The position numbers and the translations under genes were made by a program. Source: Pseudomonas sp. N040 (GTDB lineage Bacteria > Pseudomonadota > Gammaproteobacteria > Pseudomonadales > Pseudomonadaceae). From it: 64,000 nucleotides of DNA. Where the stretch lies: NCBI RefSeq assembly GCF_015637705.1, contig NZ_JADOBE010000001.1:372001-436000 (forward strand). Reading direction: 5' to 3'. Below, one piece after another: positions 2,677-29,092 of this stretch (its first letter is position 1; every line of letters starts with the position of its first letter). Below the pieces are notes generated by a model. That model was not told where the DNA came from. It saw nothing but the letters and a program-made list of their open reading frames with translations, and did not search any database.

Positions 2677-3681
2677 TTATTTGTCAGTGGCTGCATTGAG
2701 CTGCAGTGGTGGATCGTTGCGGGTTTTCCACAACGAGAACAGCACGCCGCCAGCCAGCAAGGTGAGGGTCACGCTCAGCGAAAATACCGGCGGGATCTTG
2801 CCGATGATGCCGACCAGGAAGATCTTCATGCCGACGAACACCAGGATCAGCGCCAGCGCATACTTCAGGTAAGCAAAGCGATGGATCAGCGCCGCCAGGG
2901 CAAAGTACAGGGCGCGCAGACCAAGGATGGCGAAGATGTTCGAGGTGTAGACGATGAAAGGGTCCTGAGTGATGGCAAAAATCGCCGGCACACTGTCGAC
3001 CGCGAATACCAGATCCGCTAGTTCGATGAGAATCAGCGCCAGAAACAGCGGCGTAATCCACAGCACGCTCTTTCCGGTCGCATCCGGCTGGCGCACAAAG
3101 AAACGCTGTTCATGCAAACGGTCGGTTACCCGCAGGTGTTTACGCAGGTACTTGACCATGAAGTTGTCTGCCAGATTCGGCGTCTCATCGATCTTGGCAA
3201 ACAGCATCTTCACGCCAGTGATCACCAGGAACGCGCCGAACACATACAGAATCCAGCTGTATTCATGAATCAGGGCGGCGCCCAGCGAAATCATGATGGC
3301 GCGCAACACGATCACGCCCAGGATGCCCCAGAACAGCACCTTGTGCTGGTACTGCCGCGGGATGGCAAGGAAGCTGAAGATGATCGCCATGAGGAACACG
3401 TTGTCCATCGACAGCGATTTTTCGATGAGAAAGCCCGTGTAGAAATCCATTCCGGCATCGCCGCCTTTCTGCAGCCACACCCACAGGCCGAACAACAGGC
3501 CAGCCGTGATGTAACCAGCAGACAGCAGCAGGCTTTCCTTGACGCCGATCTCGCGGTTATCGCGATGCAGCACACCAAGGTCAAACGCCAGCAGGGAAAT
3601 CACAACAGTGATGAAAACCAGCCACAGCCAGGTGGTGGTGCCGAGAAAATCGGCCATTAAGAACGCGTGCAGAGCTTCCAT
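2677..3681 (-). CDS. TerC/Alx-family integral membrane protein (putative Mn2+ exporter)
   Basis: A 334-residue inner-membrane protein with eight or nine predicted helices. The conserved acidic intramembrane motifs of the TerC family are present: SLSMDNVFLMA in the first half and ELADLVFAVDSVPAIFA in the second. E. coli Alx and MntP-like TerC proteins are linked to manganese homeostasis and alkaline response; that role is assumed here, not shown. Start at 3681 is preceded by a strong GGAGGGG Shine-Dalgarno. The 5' leader (3682-3759) can pair with that Shine-Dalgarno, suggesting translational control. A decayed copy of the gene start and leader lies at 9474-9810. Confidence 0.92.
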   Translation of the reverse strand: MEALHAFLMADFLGTTTWLWLVFITVVISLLAFDLGVLHRDNREIGVKESLLLSAGYITAGLLFGLWVWLQKGGDAGMDFYTGFLIEKSLSMDNVFLMAIIFSFLAIPRQYQHKVLFWGILGVIVLRAIMISLGAALIHEYSWILYVFGAFLVITGVKMLFAKIDETPNLADNFMVKYLRKHLRVTDRLHEQRFFVRQPDATGKSVLWITPLFLALILIELADLVFAVDSVPAIFAITQDPFIVYTSNIFAILGLRALYFALAALIHRFAYLKYALALILVFVGMKIFLVGIIGKIPPVFSLSVTLTLLAGGVLFSLWKTRNDPPLQLNAATDK

Positions 3682-3818
3682 GAGCCCCTCCTTAGTCGAA
3701 GTTGTACAAGCTGTAACTCCGACATGGCGGCGCTAGCCGTCAGAGGGGCCCGGTGTTACGCGACGCACCTTAGTAAATCCCAGCGCTGCACTCAACCATA
3801 CAGATTTTGCAAAGTATT
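3644..3818. repeat. Direct repeat copy A (terC start plus leader)
   Basis: About 175 bp covering the first 13 codons of terC, its leader and the sequence upstream. It is repeated in the same orientation at 9474-9810, where a roughly 165-bp insertion splits it. The homology begins at GAGAAAATCGGCC in both copies and fades after GATTTTGCA; by eye the half nearest the gene is about 90% identical and the distal half clearly less. The copies flank a 5.7-kb segment carrying sua5, the LysR/IDH cluster and cysD. Confidence 0.8.
3682..3759 (-). promoter_or_regulatory. Structured 5' leader of terC with Shine-Dalgarno-sequestering helix
   Basis: Read on the minus strand the leader holds four segments in the order a-b-a'-b'. 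a is GUAACACC (3759-3752), b is GGGCCCCUC (3751-3743), a' is GGAGUUAC (3720-3713) and b' is GAGGGGCUC (3690-3682), which ends at the AUG and contains the Shine-Dalgarno. a pairs with a' (five plus two base pairs around an A-A mismatch) and b pairs with b' (nine pairs including one G-U). This is either an H-type pseudoknot or two competing folds. Between b and a' a small CGGC-UAGC-GCCG hairpin is possible. Both pairings survive in the decayed copy at 9513-9753. The ligand or signal is unknown. Confidence 0.6.
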
Positions 3819-3883
3819 TCTGGCTGCCGAACCTGTGCTTATTCGGCAGAATGCGCGCCCTTTTCGCCTGACCGGTTTACGCG

Positions 3884-4831
3884 ATGCCGCTGCTGACAAC
3901 TTGCCCGCAACTCGCCTGTGAACGGCTCAAAGCCGGCGAACTGCTGGCGTTACCCACGGAAACGGTTTACGGACTGGCGGCCGATGCGCGCAACCAAAGC
4001 GCGGTGGCCAAGGTCTTTGCGCTCAAGGGTCGGCCGGCCAGCAACCCGCTGATCATCCATTTGGCCAGTGCTGAACAGGCACAGGAGTGGGCGCGCGATA
4101 TTACTGCTGCTGCGCAACGCCTGATGAAAGCCTTCTGGCCCGGCCCGCTGACGCTGGTCCTGCCGGCGCATGCGCATGTTTCACGCAGCATCACCGCCGG
4201 GCAGGACAGCGTGGCCTTGCGCGTACCCGCGCACCCCCTGGCGCTGGAAGTGCTGCGCCGGTTTGATGGAGGACTGGTGGCACCCTCGGCAAACCGCTAC
4301 ATGTCCATCAGCCCGACCTGCGCCGCCCATGTGGGGCAACAGTTTGCTGACAGCGACCTGCTGATTCTGGATGGCGGCGAAAGTGCGGTCGGGCTGGAAT
4401 CGACCATCGTCAGCCTGTTGCCCAACGATCAGCCCAGACTGCTGCGCGAAGGCATGCTCAGCCCCGGGCAGATAGAAGCAGTACTGGGCGCAATCCTGCT
4501 ACGGGGGGCAGACAGCGCGGTGCGCGTACCGGGTCAGCACAAGAAGCACTATGCGCCGACCACACCCAGCTGGCGCTTTGCCCAGACACCCGTTGCAGAC
4601 CTCGGTAACCCGCAGTACGCCTGGCTCTGGTGTGGCGAGGGCCTGGCCACTGCAGGGCCTTCCATCAGCCTGGGCAATGAGCCCAGCGCCTATGCCCAGG
4701 GCCTGTATGCCGCACTGTACCAACTTGACGGCCTCGGCCTGCAACGCCTATTGATCCAGCTGCCAACAGAGGCGCCTGCCTGGCTGGCCGTGCATGACCG
4801 ACTGGCACGCGCCAGCCAGTTGCTCGCCTGA
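3884..4831 (+). CDS. L-threonylcarbamoyladenylate synthase, Sua5 type
   Basis: A 315-residue cytoplasmic enzyme that makes threonylcarbamoyl-AMP from Thr, bicarbonate and ATP for the t6A37 modification of ANN-decoding tRNAs. The N-terminal YrdC/Sua5 domain (about residues 10-195) shows LPTETVYGLAADA, KGRPASNPLIIH and PSANRYMSISPTCA, the substrate-binding segments. A C-terminal Sua5 domain (about 210-315) follows a GQHKKHYAPTTP linker that closes the active site in characterised Sua5. Pseudomonads normally carry a shorter single-domain TsaC/YrdC elsewhere, so this long form is likely an additional copy (inference). No clear Shine-Dalgarno precedes the ATG. It converges on the DUF7352-like gene. 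Confidence 0.9.
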   Translation: MPLLTTCPQLACERLKAGELLALPTETVYGLAADARNQSAVAKVFALKGRPASNPLIIHLASAEQAQEWARDITAAAQRLMKAFWPGPLTLVLPAHAHVSRSITAGQDSVALRVPAHPLALEVLRRFDGGLVAPSANRYMSISPTCAAHVGQQFADSDLLILDGGESAVGLESTIVSLLPNDQPRLLREGMLSPGQIEAVLGAILLRGADSAVRVPGQHKKHYAPTTPSWRFAQTPVADLGNPQYAWLWCGEGLATAGPSISLGNEPSAYAQGLYAALYQLDGLGLQRLLIQLPTEAPAWLAVHDRLARASQLLA

Positions 4832-9473: not shown

Positions 9474-9810
9474 GAGAAAATCGGCCATTAACAACGCGTG
9501 CAGAGCGTCCATGAGCCCCCTCCCTGGTCGAAGGTGTGCAAGCTGTAACTCCTACCTGGCGGTATCAGTGACCTGTGTGGTTAGTCCAGTTAGTCAATTT
9601 CGGCGTCCGCAGCCCCGATACTGCGTTACCGCTCCTCGCCATAGCCCTGCTATGCCTCGTCACGGAGCCTTGTTTCAGGACCACGGCCATCCGAACTTGA
9701 GTTAACCAACTAACCGTACAGGCCACTAACCGTCAGCGGGGCCCGGTGTTACGGGGCGAGCGCTGGTAAGCCCGAGCGTTTCACTGAACTACAAGATTTT
9801 TGCACGGTAT
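9474..9810 (-). pseudogene. terC relic: leader plus first 14 codons (direct repeat copy B)
   Basis: Minus-strand sequence from 9512 reads MDALHALLMADFLA and then a TGA, closely matching the first 13 residues of the intact TerC at 2677-3681. Upstream the leader is also duplicated, including GGAGUUAC, GUAACACC and the GGGCCCC/GGGGCUC pairing segments, but is cut by a MITE-like insertion at about 9563-9728. No further terC sequence is seen between here and cysD, so only the 5' end was copied or has survived. The stretch 9439-9820 contains no convincing gene; this relic and the insertion account for it. Confidence 0.8.
9563..9728. mobile_element. MITE-like non-autonomous insertion
   Basis: Comparison of the two terC leader copies shows about 165 extra bases here. 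The ends are imperfect inverted repeats of roughly 35 bp: CAGTGACCTGTGTGGTTAGT on the left and, reverse-complemented, TAGTGGCCTGTACGGTTAGT on the right, continuing into GTTAGTCAATTT against GTTAACTCAAGTT. The interior holds no long reading frame but has a small dyad around CCATAGCCCTGCTATGC. TA dinucleotides abut both ends and could be a target duplication, which would suggest an IS630/Tc1-type transposase in trans, but the exact borders are ambiguous. Confidence 0.6.
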
Positions 9811-9820
9811 GTCGCCCCGC

Positions 9821-10198
9821 CTAGCCGGCGCGCCGCGCATCCAGGCTGTAGGCCCCGGCGCCCTGCACGTAGAGCAGGAGAAAGCCGCCGGCGATGGCCA
9901 GGTTCTTCATGAACATGACCATCTGTACCTGGTCGGCGAAATTGCTGTGGAAGATCAGCGCCGCCAGCAGGCAGAAGCCGGCCAGCGCCAGCGCTACCCA
10001 GCGGGTCAGCCAGCCGATGATCAGCGCCAGGCCGCCACCAGCCTCCAGCAGGATCACCAGCGGCAGCAGCATGCCGGGCACGCCCATGCTTTCCATGTAA
10101 CCCTGGGCGCCGGCATAGGCAGTCAGCTTGCCCAGCCCGGCCAGCAGAAACAGCTGCCCGAGCAACAGCCGGGCGAGCAGGGTGATTGCGTTGTTCAT
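9821..10198 (-). CDS. DoxX family membrane protein
   Basis: A 125-residue protein with four predicted membrane helices and the DoxX-type GQLFLLAGLGKL and LEAGGGLALIIGW segments. DoxX-like proteins are often linked to redox or thiol stress, but the function of this one is not known. The ATG at 10198 follows GGAGGTGTGT; a GTG two codons earlier is possible. The promoter-distal end lies ten bases from the terC repeat. Confidence 0.85.
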   Translation of the reverse strand: MNNAITLLARLLLGQLFLLAGLGKLTAYAGAQGYMESMGVPGMLLPLVILLEAGGGLALIIGWLTRWVALALAGFCLLAALIFHSNFADQVQMVMFMKNLAIAGGFLLLYVQGAGAYSLDARRAG

Positions 10199-28949: not shown

Positions 28950-28968
28950 CCCGCAGCAATCCGCAGGC

Positions 28969-29006
28969 AAAAAAAACCCGAACTTCGATGGGGAGGGAAG
29001 TTCGGG
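28969..29006 (-). terminator. Intrinsic terminator of ersA
   Basis: On the minus strand CCCGAACTT (29006-28998) and AAGTTCGGG (28985-28977) form a perfect 9-bp stem with a 12-nt C-rich loop, followed by eight T residues (28976-28969). It ends ErsA and would also stop any readthrough from polA. Confidence 0.93.
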
Positions 29007-29092
29007 CTTCAAAATCCGCACCGCCTGCGCGGTCGGAATCTGCCAACACATGAATCACCAAAGGAGAAACGAATGGCCTCAGCAGCCATTCA
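28969..29092 (-). ncRNA. ersA: ErsA small RNA
   Basis: Between engB and polA the minus strand has a sigma-22-type promoter (29124-29098), a 5' hairpin GAATGGC/GCCATTC beginning a few bases after the expected start, a C/U-rich single-stranded stretch with GUUUCUCCUUUGG, and an intrinsic terminator ending at the T run 28976-28969. Position, promoter class, size of about 125 nt and structure agree with ErsA, the AlgU-dependent Hfq-binding sRNA of P. aeruginosa that controls envelope and biofilm genes such as algC and oprD. The terminator loop carries CCCUCCCC. The exact 5' end is estimated from the promoter. Confidence 0.85.

Follow-up and report, generated by a model that had tools for sequence, protein, structure and literature searches.

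A Catalogued terC RNA Upstream of a Pseudomonas terC Gene: A Likely Translational Switch Whose Core Strand Is Complementary to the Shine–Dalgarno Sequence

Results and Discussion

The terC Locus and Its Leader

We analyzed a 64,000-nt stretch of DNA from Pseudomonas sp. N040 (herein referred to as the window), in which a terC gene on the minus strand is preceded by a leader at 3682–3759. An earlier reading of this DNA from its letters (herein the sequence-only reading) had described two complementary pairs of segments in the order a–b–a'–b' upstream of terC, the last segment holding the Shine–Dalgarno sequence (SD) and touching the start codon. The minus-strand coordinates agree: a (GUAACACC) lies at 3759–3752, b (GGGCCCCUC) at 3751–3743, a' (GGAGUUAC) at 3720–3713, and b' (GAGGGGCUC) at 3690–3682, directly adjoining the AUG at 3681–3679. 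Segments a and a' form seven of eight pairs with one A·A mismatch, and b and b' form nine pairs, one of them G·U. The features of the leader and gene are as follows.

3767–3795, minus strand: inferred sigma-70-like promoter, TTGAGT-N17-TAAGGT, identified by eye
3710–3761, minus strand: match to all 59 positions of the RF03067 terC RNA model (cmscan, 45 bits; gathering score 39.9)
3750–3759, minus strand: 5' strand of helix P1 (a at 3752–3759 plus the GG of the core), its outer pairs covarying with the 3' strand in relatives
3741–3751, minus strand: 5' strand of the core, GGGCCCCUCUG (including b at 3743–3751), near-invariant and SD-complementary, from the strict core pattern and core–SD pairing
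3727–3740, minus strand: inner hairpin P1b, from covariation; its loop would form a kissing pair in other lineages but not here
3713–3726, minus strand: 3' side of the core, CAUG, and 3' strand of P1, UCGGAGUUAC (including a' at 3713–3720), from the RF03067 alignment and covariation
3700–3712, minus strand: short hairpin-like AGCUUGUACAACU in the interval from P1 to the SD, weak here and clearer in relatives
3682–3692, minus strand: SD AGGAGGGGCUC, including b' at 3682–3690, from the sequence and core–SD duplex energies
2677–3681, minus strand: terC, an open reading frame of 334 aa (Pfam PF03741, 182.3 bits)

The inferred promoter would start the RNA near 3760 and thereby place both a and b inside the transcript. 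Its 17-nt spacing is identical in the related leaders L012, L186, and L194 and is not evident by eye in more distant leaders; a scan of the leader region with a stricter promoter consensus found no promoter. Upstream of the inferred promoter lies a TTTGCAAAAT box (3804–3813, minus strand), which recurs by eye in sister terC leaders such as L012, L186, and L189 and could be a UP element or the site of a regulator. We also considered an intrinsic terminator for the leader region and rejected it, as a scan of 3640–3900 gave no terminator-like site.

Taken alone, the helix of the window's leader is borderline: its longest run, 10 contiguous pairs, was equalled 103 times when the 78 nt underwent 2000 mononucleotide shuffles, and the leader's folding energy has a z score of −2.13, with 8 of 200 dinucleotide shuffles equally good. 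The weight of the evidence for the predicted leader structure is carried by its relatives.

The window also contains a second, diverged copy of this region, in which the sequence-only reading had found both pairings kept.

9476–9562, minus strand: decayed second copy, 3' half of the leader and first terC codons, from alignment
9727–9826, minus strand: decayed second copy, promoter region and 5' half of the leader, from alignment
9567–9728, no strand assigned: inserted repeat element (about 160 bp) bounded by imperfect inverted ends, one of four copies in the genome

Both pairs are indeed present (GTAACACC/GGAGTTAC and GGGCCCC/GGGGCTC), but the repeat element splits this copy, which is a decayed remnant and cannot count as independent support for them. 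It comprises only promoter region, leader, and first codons (9476–9826), with no terC gene and a frame that, by eye, stops after 14 codons; it is changed at near-invariant core positions (CCCCUCUG to CCCCGCUG and AUGUCGG to AGGUAGG); and RF03067 does not match it up to E = 10. The insertion point is the inner-hairpin loop of this second leader, and the other three copies of the repeat element are 81–84% identical. Elsewhere in the window, 28961–29069 on the minus strand matches the Rfam Pseudomon-1/ErsA sRNA (RF01719, 68.9 bits).

The Leader Belongs to the RF03067 terC RNA Family

A covariance-model search identifies the leader as a member of RF03067, "terC RNA", a bacterial RNA element already catalogued but unexplained. 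The match covers model positions 1–59 of 59 at 45.0 bits, above the curated gathering score of 39.9, and is the sole match within 3600–3900 up to E = 1; it precedes terC in the same orientation, with 28 nt from its end (3710) to the start codon (3681), and in it P1 and the inner hairpin frame the core GCCCCUCUG / RAUG, as seen from alignment and covariation. The family reportedly originates with Weinberg et al. in 2017, as a candidate cis-regulatory RNA. The yybP-ykoY element (RF00080) has no match in the window at its gathering score and none within 3600–3900 up to E = 1, so that this identity was rejected for the leader. The sequence-only reading was right to expect a structured leader distinct from yybP-ykoY; its further suggestion of a different, undescribed riboswitch class falls with the RF03067 match.

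At E ≤ 0.001, and with stricter search filters under which weak matches are lost, RF03067 occurs in at least 34 of 99 genomes sampled from the genus, at least 7 of 194 from the order, at least 64 of 398 from the phylum, and at least 98 of 297 from the order of genome G488. One genome (G407) carries five elements (L052, L199, L214, L219, and L249), which may constitute a small regulon under one signal.

For comparative analysis we kept 311 of 349 loci, 209 of them non-redundant (2 of the 311 records are without flanks). The 38 dropped for mismatch to the core pattern were 29 of the 120 from a loose pattern scan and nine RF03067 hits, and the repeat-element and control loci (L252–L305) stand outside the 311-locus set by design. 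Selection therefore accounts in part for the invariance of the core among the retained loci; the strict core pattern was present in 122 of an earlier set of 131 RF03067 loci.

The pairing of a with a', which the sequence-only reading had proposed, emerges from these relatives as a real helix, on the strength of covariation in P1 and the inner hairpin. P1 pairs 4, 5, 6, and 7 are formed in 192, 175, 166, and 136 of the 209 non-redundant loci, against shuffle means of 117, 134, 95, and 84 and maxima of 131, 145, 119, and 107, each with all four Watson–Crick types (the shuffles treat loci as unrelated; an earlier set of 195 loci also covaried). Inner-hairpin pairs 3, 4, and 5, also with four Watson–Crick types, are formed in 196/209, 184/208, and 175/203 loci (shuffle means 113, 89, and 81). 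P1 pair 3 (model pair 8–51) does not covary, being paired in 76 of 209 loci against a shuffle mean of 73. Comparison of the loci shows the predicted P1 and inner hairpin framing a near-invariant core, CCGGGCCCCUCUG opposite RAUG, and since b lies inside this core and hardly varies, the b/b' pairing is left without a covariation signal. Beyond P1, a hairpin of at least five Watson–Crick pairs within 40 nt occurs in 67 of the 209 loci (shuffle mean 33, maximum 42 in 20 shuffles).

Complementarity between Core and Shine–Dalgarno Sequence

In Pseudomonadales, comparison and energy calculation show the core strand to be complementary to the SD, such that it can bury the SD in about 10 pairs. The duplex between core and start region averages −19.8 kcal/mol over 62 leader-bearing Pseudomonadales terC genes (56 distinct leader sequences, 22 distinct SD 14-mers), as against −9.8 kcal/mol over 22 leaderless terC genes of the genus, which have no core within 400 nt and mostly belong, judged by their N-termini, to a different TerC subgroup. 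These controls remain of 27 loci after five without a TerC hit (L301–L305) were dropped; their 17 distinct start regions average −9.5 kcal/mol, and one outlier (L290) reaches −18.6 kcal/mol. They include L300, in which a leader core looks decayed (CCAGGUCCUGCUG) and the start region pairs with an intact core at only −6.4 kcal/mol. Within the window itself, 38 long open reading frames with an SD-like motif average −10.6 kcal/mol, and terC alone lies beyond −18. The leader thus has the SD complementarity, in excess of control genes, of an SD-sequestering leader.

Any SD is partly complementary to the CCUC of the core. We therefore compared loci with dinucleotide shuffles of their downstream 52 nt. 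The 17 Pseudomonadales terC loci of the non-redundant set average −19.3 kcal/mol versus −12.9 shuffled, with 12 of 17 at p ≤ 0.05 and five failing (L060 at −11.6); the group was labeled without use of AGGGG or GGGAGGGC, labels that would have been circular. Loci of the YjbE type average −17.0 versus −12.8 kcal/mol shuffled (11 of 28 at p ≤ 0.05), and 11 of 82 other TerC loci reach the same level. None does before DUF475 (0/12), TerB (0/5), DUF4112 (0/7), or DAG kinase (DAGK, 0/5) genes, and the whole non-redundant set gives 40 of 209.

Core–SD pairing is accordingly lineage-specific, strong in Pseudomonadales terC leaders and frequent in those of the YjbE type. The sequence-only reading had b/b' masking the SD, and that view gains from a complementarity beyond both leaderless terC and other window genes, but it does not generalize across lineages. 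Many alphaproteobacterial starts lie 100–400 nt away, a distance at which it is difficult to envisage the SD being masked directly. Being lineage-specific, SD complementarity is not the cause of core conservation everywhere; we infer that the core has another role, most simply that of a sensor.

A Putative Kissing Pair in Other Lineages

In many other loci the inner-hairpin loop complements bases immediately before the SD, and the sequences involved differ from locus to locus: GGUCGGCGC/GCGCCGACC (L327), CAGCCGGC/GCCGGCUG (L044), UCGGCAC/GUGCCGA (L046), GCCGGUC/GACCGGC (L078, a Rhizobiaceae MAG), UGCCGGA/UCCGGCA (L074, a gammaproteobacterium labeled as an Arenimonas MAG), and CGUCGCC/GGCGACG (L357). 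Summed stacking over the 209 loci, with no position filter, is −1998 as against −1733 in 2000 partner permutations (SD of permutations 49, minimum −1907). At least six Watson–Crick pairs at an offset of 6–16, a range chosen after the unfiltered stacking result, occur in 37 of 201 loci versus 8.0 expected (standard deviation 2.7, maximum 19 in 1000 permutations), so that some of the 37 must be chance; a few of them are in Pseudomonadales (L002, L011). Weaker results place 8 of 32 TerC loci at p ≤ 0.05 and, among the 209 loci, 25 at p ≤ 0.05 (10.5 expected) and nine at p ≤ 0.01. The window's own leader (L001) has no such pair, with no run of four or more Watson–Crick pairs.

These comparisons suggest a covarying kissing pair that occurs often, and mainly in alphaproteobacteria. 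It is found in 5 of 34 loci with strong core–SD pairing versus 14 of 30 with weak pairing (Fisher p = 0.007), in a comparison of 64 non-redundant loci with the start 20–60 nt away and a −14 kcal/mol cut set after the core–SD results. As the kissing pair is collinear with core–SD pairing, the two could bury the SD together. At a DUF4112 locus (L141), the segment UACGGACC of the inner hairpin has its complement in GGUCCGUA, a stretch overlapping both the SD and the first nucleotide of the start codon.

A Two-State Model and Its Alternatives

We consider it likely that the leader is a terC RNA acting in cis as a translational switch, in which the core strand either buries the SD or takes part in a sensor fold. 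In the OFF state the core strand would pair with the SD and terC would not be translated; in the ON state P1 and the core would fold as a sensor, freeing the SD so that terC is made. The two states would be mutually exclusive at least in part, and the sensor fold could be stabilized by a ligand, an ion, pH, a protein, or slow transcription. Because P1 is transcribed first, the natural two-state reading would be a sensor fold that gives way to the SD afterwards if nothing stabilizes it. In other lineages, mainly alphaproteobacteria, the kissing pair between loop and pre-SD bases may do a similar job.

How the two helices relate was left by the sequence-only reading as a pseudoknot or two competing helices, and modeling favors the latter part. 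In the nested ensemble, core–SD pairing has a probability of at least 0.9 in 58 of the 62 Pseudomonadales leaders (it is near zero in L056 and L157) and P1 one of at most 0.014; the minimum-free-energy fold of the window's leader agrees with this dominant core–SD state. Competing helices thus appear to fit better than a pseudoknot within a calculation that represents nested pairs, leaving aside pseudoknots, tertiary contacts, and co-transcriptional order. A true pseudoknot, with P1 formed while core positions 13–20 (GCCCCUCU) pair with the SD and the compact, signal-bound form being OFF, would suit the a–b–a'–b' order, and a compact form is conceivable given that just two P1 pairs overlap b and the kissing pairs are collinear with the core–SD pairing. 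Folds in which P1 is forced are 11.2 kcal/mol worse on average, although both helices cannot coexist in such a calculation. In some lineages the CCGG of P1 is itself the pairing partner of the SD side (GGUCCGG in L309, L342, and L368), an arrangement that is incompatible with P1 and requires it to open. We judge the pseudoknot unlikely.

Returning to the switch as a whole, the near-invariance of the core even where no SD partner stands out, together with gene starts that can be hundreds of nucleotides away, would also suit a core that binds a protein or ligand and acts by another route, such as transcript stability or termination, with SD complementarity a by-product of a CCUC core near a strong SD. 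Leaderless terC genes of the genus and the other window genes lack this complementarity, the kissing pair near the SD covaries, and 3640–3900 yielded no terminator-like site; on this evidence such a route seems quite improbable. Fortuitous complementarity in a G+C-rich leader, with no regulatory role, might be read into the frequency with which shuffles match the window's 10-pair helix, but the Rfam match and the covarying pairs of P1 and inner hairpin over 209 non-redundant loci leave chance with hardly any credibility.

The genes downstream of the 311 loci bear on the signal of the proposed switch. They comprise TerC (167), YjbE-type TerC (34), DUF475 (16), TerB (12), Tim44 (10), DAG kinase (9), DUF4112 (8), TFIIB zinc ribbon (5), Na/Ca exchanger (4), Bax-inhibitor (3), NhaA (2), HtpX-like M48 (2), MrpE-like (1), and carbonic anhydrase (1) genes, two families without a Pfam match (7), and 30 loci to which no family was given. 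Calls were made with phmmer, using one to three representatives per family against open reading frames starting within 600 nt and taking the best score; the main representatives were checked against Pfam, and related genomes are counted more than once. We read the common ground of these genes as pH, ion, and envelope homeostasis, and on the basis of these shared functions we guess that the signal is alkaline, ionic, or envelope-related; the target genes suggest pH, ion, or envelope stress. In the window, terC is probably switched at the level of translation by a signal such as pH or ions.

We advance more tentatively, as a possibility somewhat short of an even chance, the generalization that terC RNAs are translational switches opened by pH or ion stress, in which a near-invariant strand is both half of a sensor and an anti-SD, and lineages swap core–SD pairing (Pseudomonadales) for a kissing loop (mainly alphaproteobacteria) on a platform absent from the catalogued model. 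A two-state model with named bases, coupled with non-homologous targets in pH, ion, and envelope functions, makes both the signal and the direction of control testable, and the kissing pair would allow a better RF03067 family model.

Comparison with Known Systems

The window's leader shares its core, P1, and inner hairpin with the RF03067 family and likewise lies ahead of terC. The model has 59 positions and ends six positions after P1, without the SD partner or the kissing partner, so that core–SD pairing and the kissing pair are both absent from it; among the matches listed in the open-licence literature, no paper names a signal for the family.

The yybP-ykoY manganese riboswitch sits before TerC-family genes, a placement it shares with the terC RNA; it differs from the window's leader in that the RF00080 model has no match here. 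A passage of PMC10898510 deals with ykoY. A parallel in behavior may be offered by the leader of alx, a TerC-family gene. The alx pH-responsive element (PRE) of Escherichia coli is described in PMC3874183 as shifting between two folds, one translationally inactive and one active. The PRE is characterized by pause-dependent refolding at alkaline pH, and no sequence common to it and the window's leader was noticed. It is like the proposed terC RNA switch in being a TerC-family leader with one translationally inactive and one active fold, a likeness of functional analogy only.
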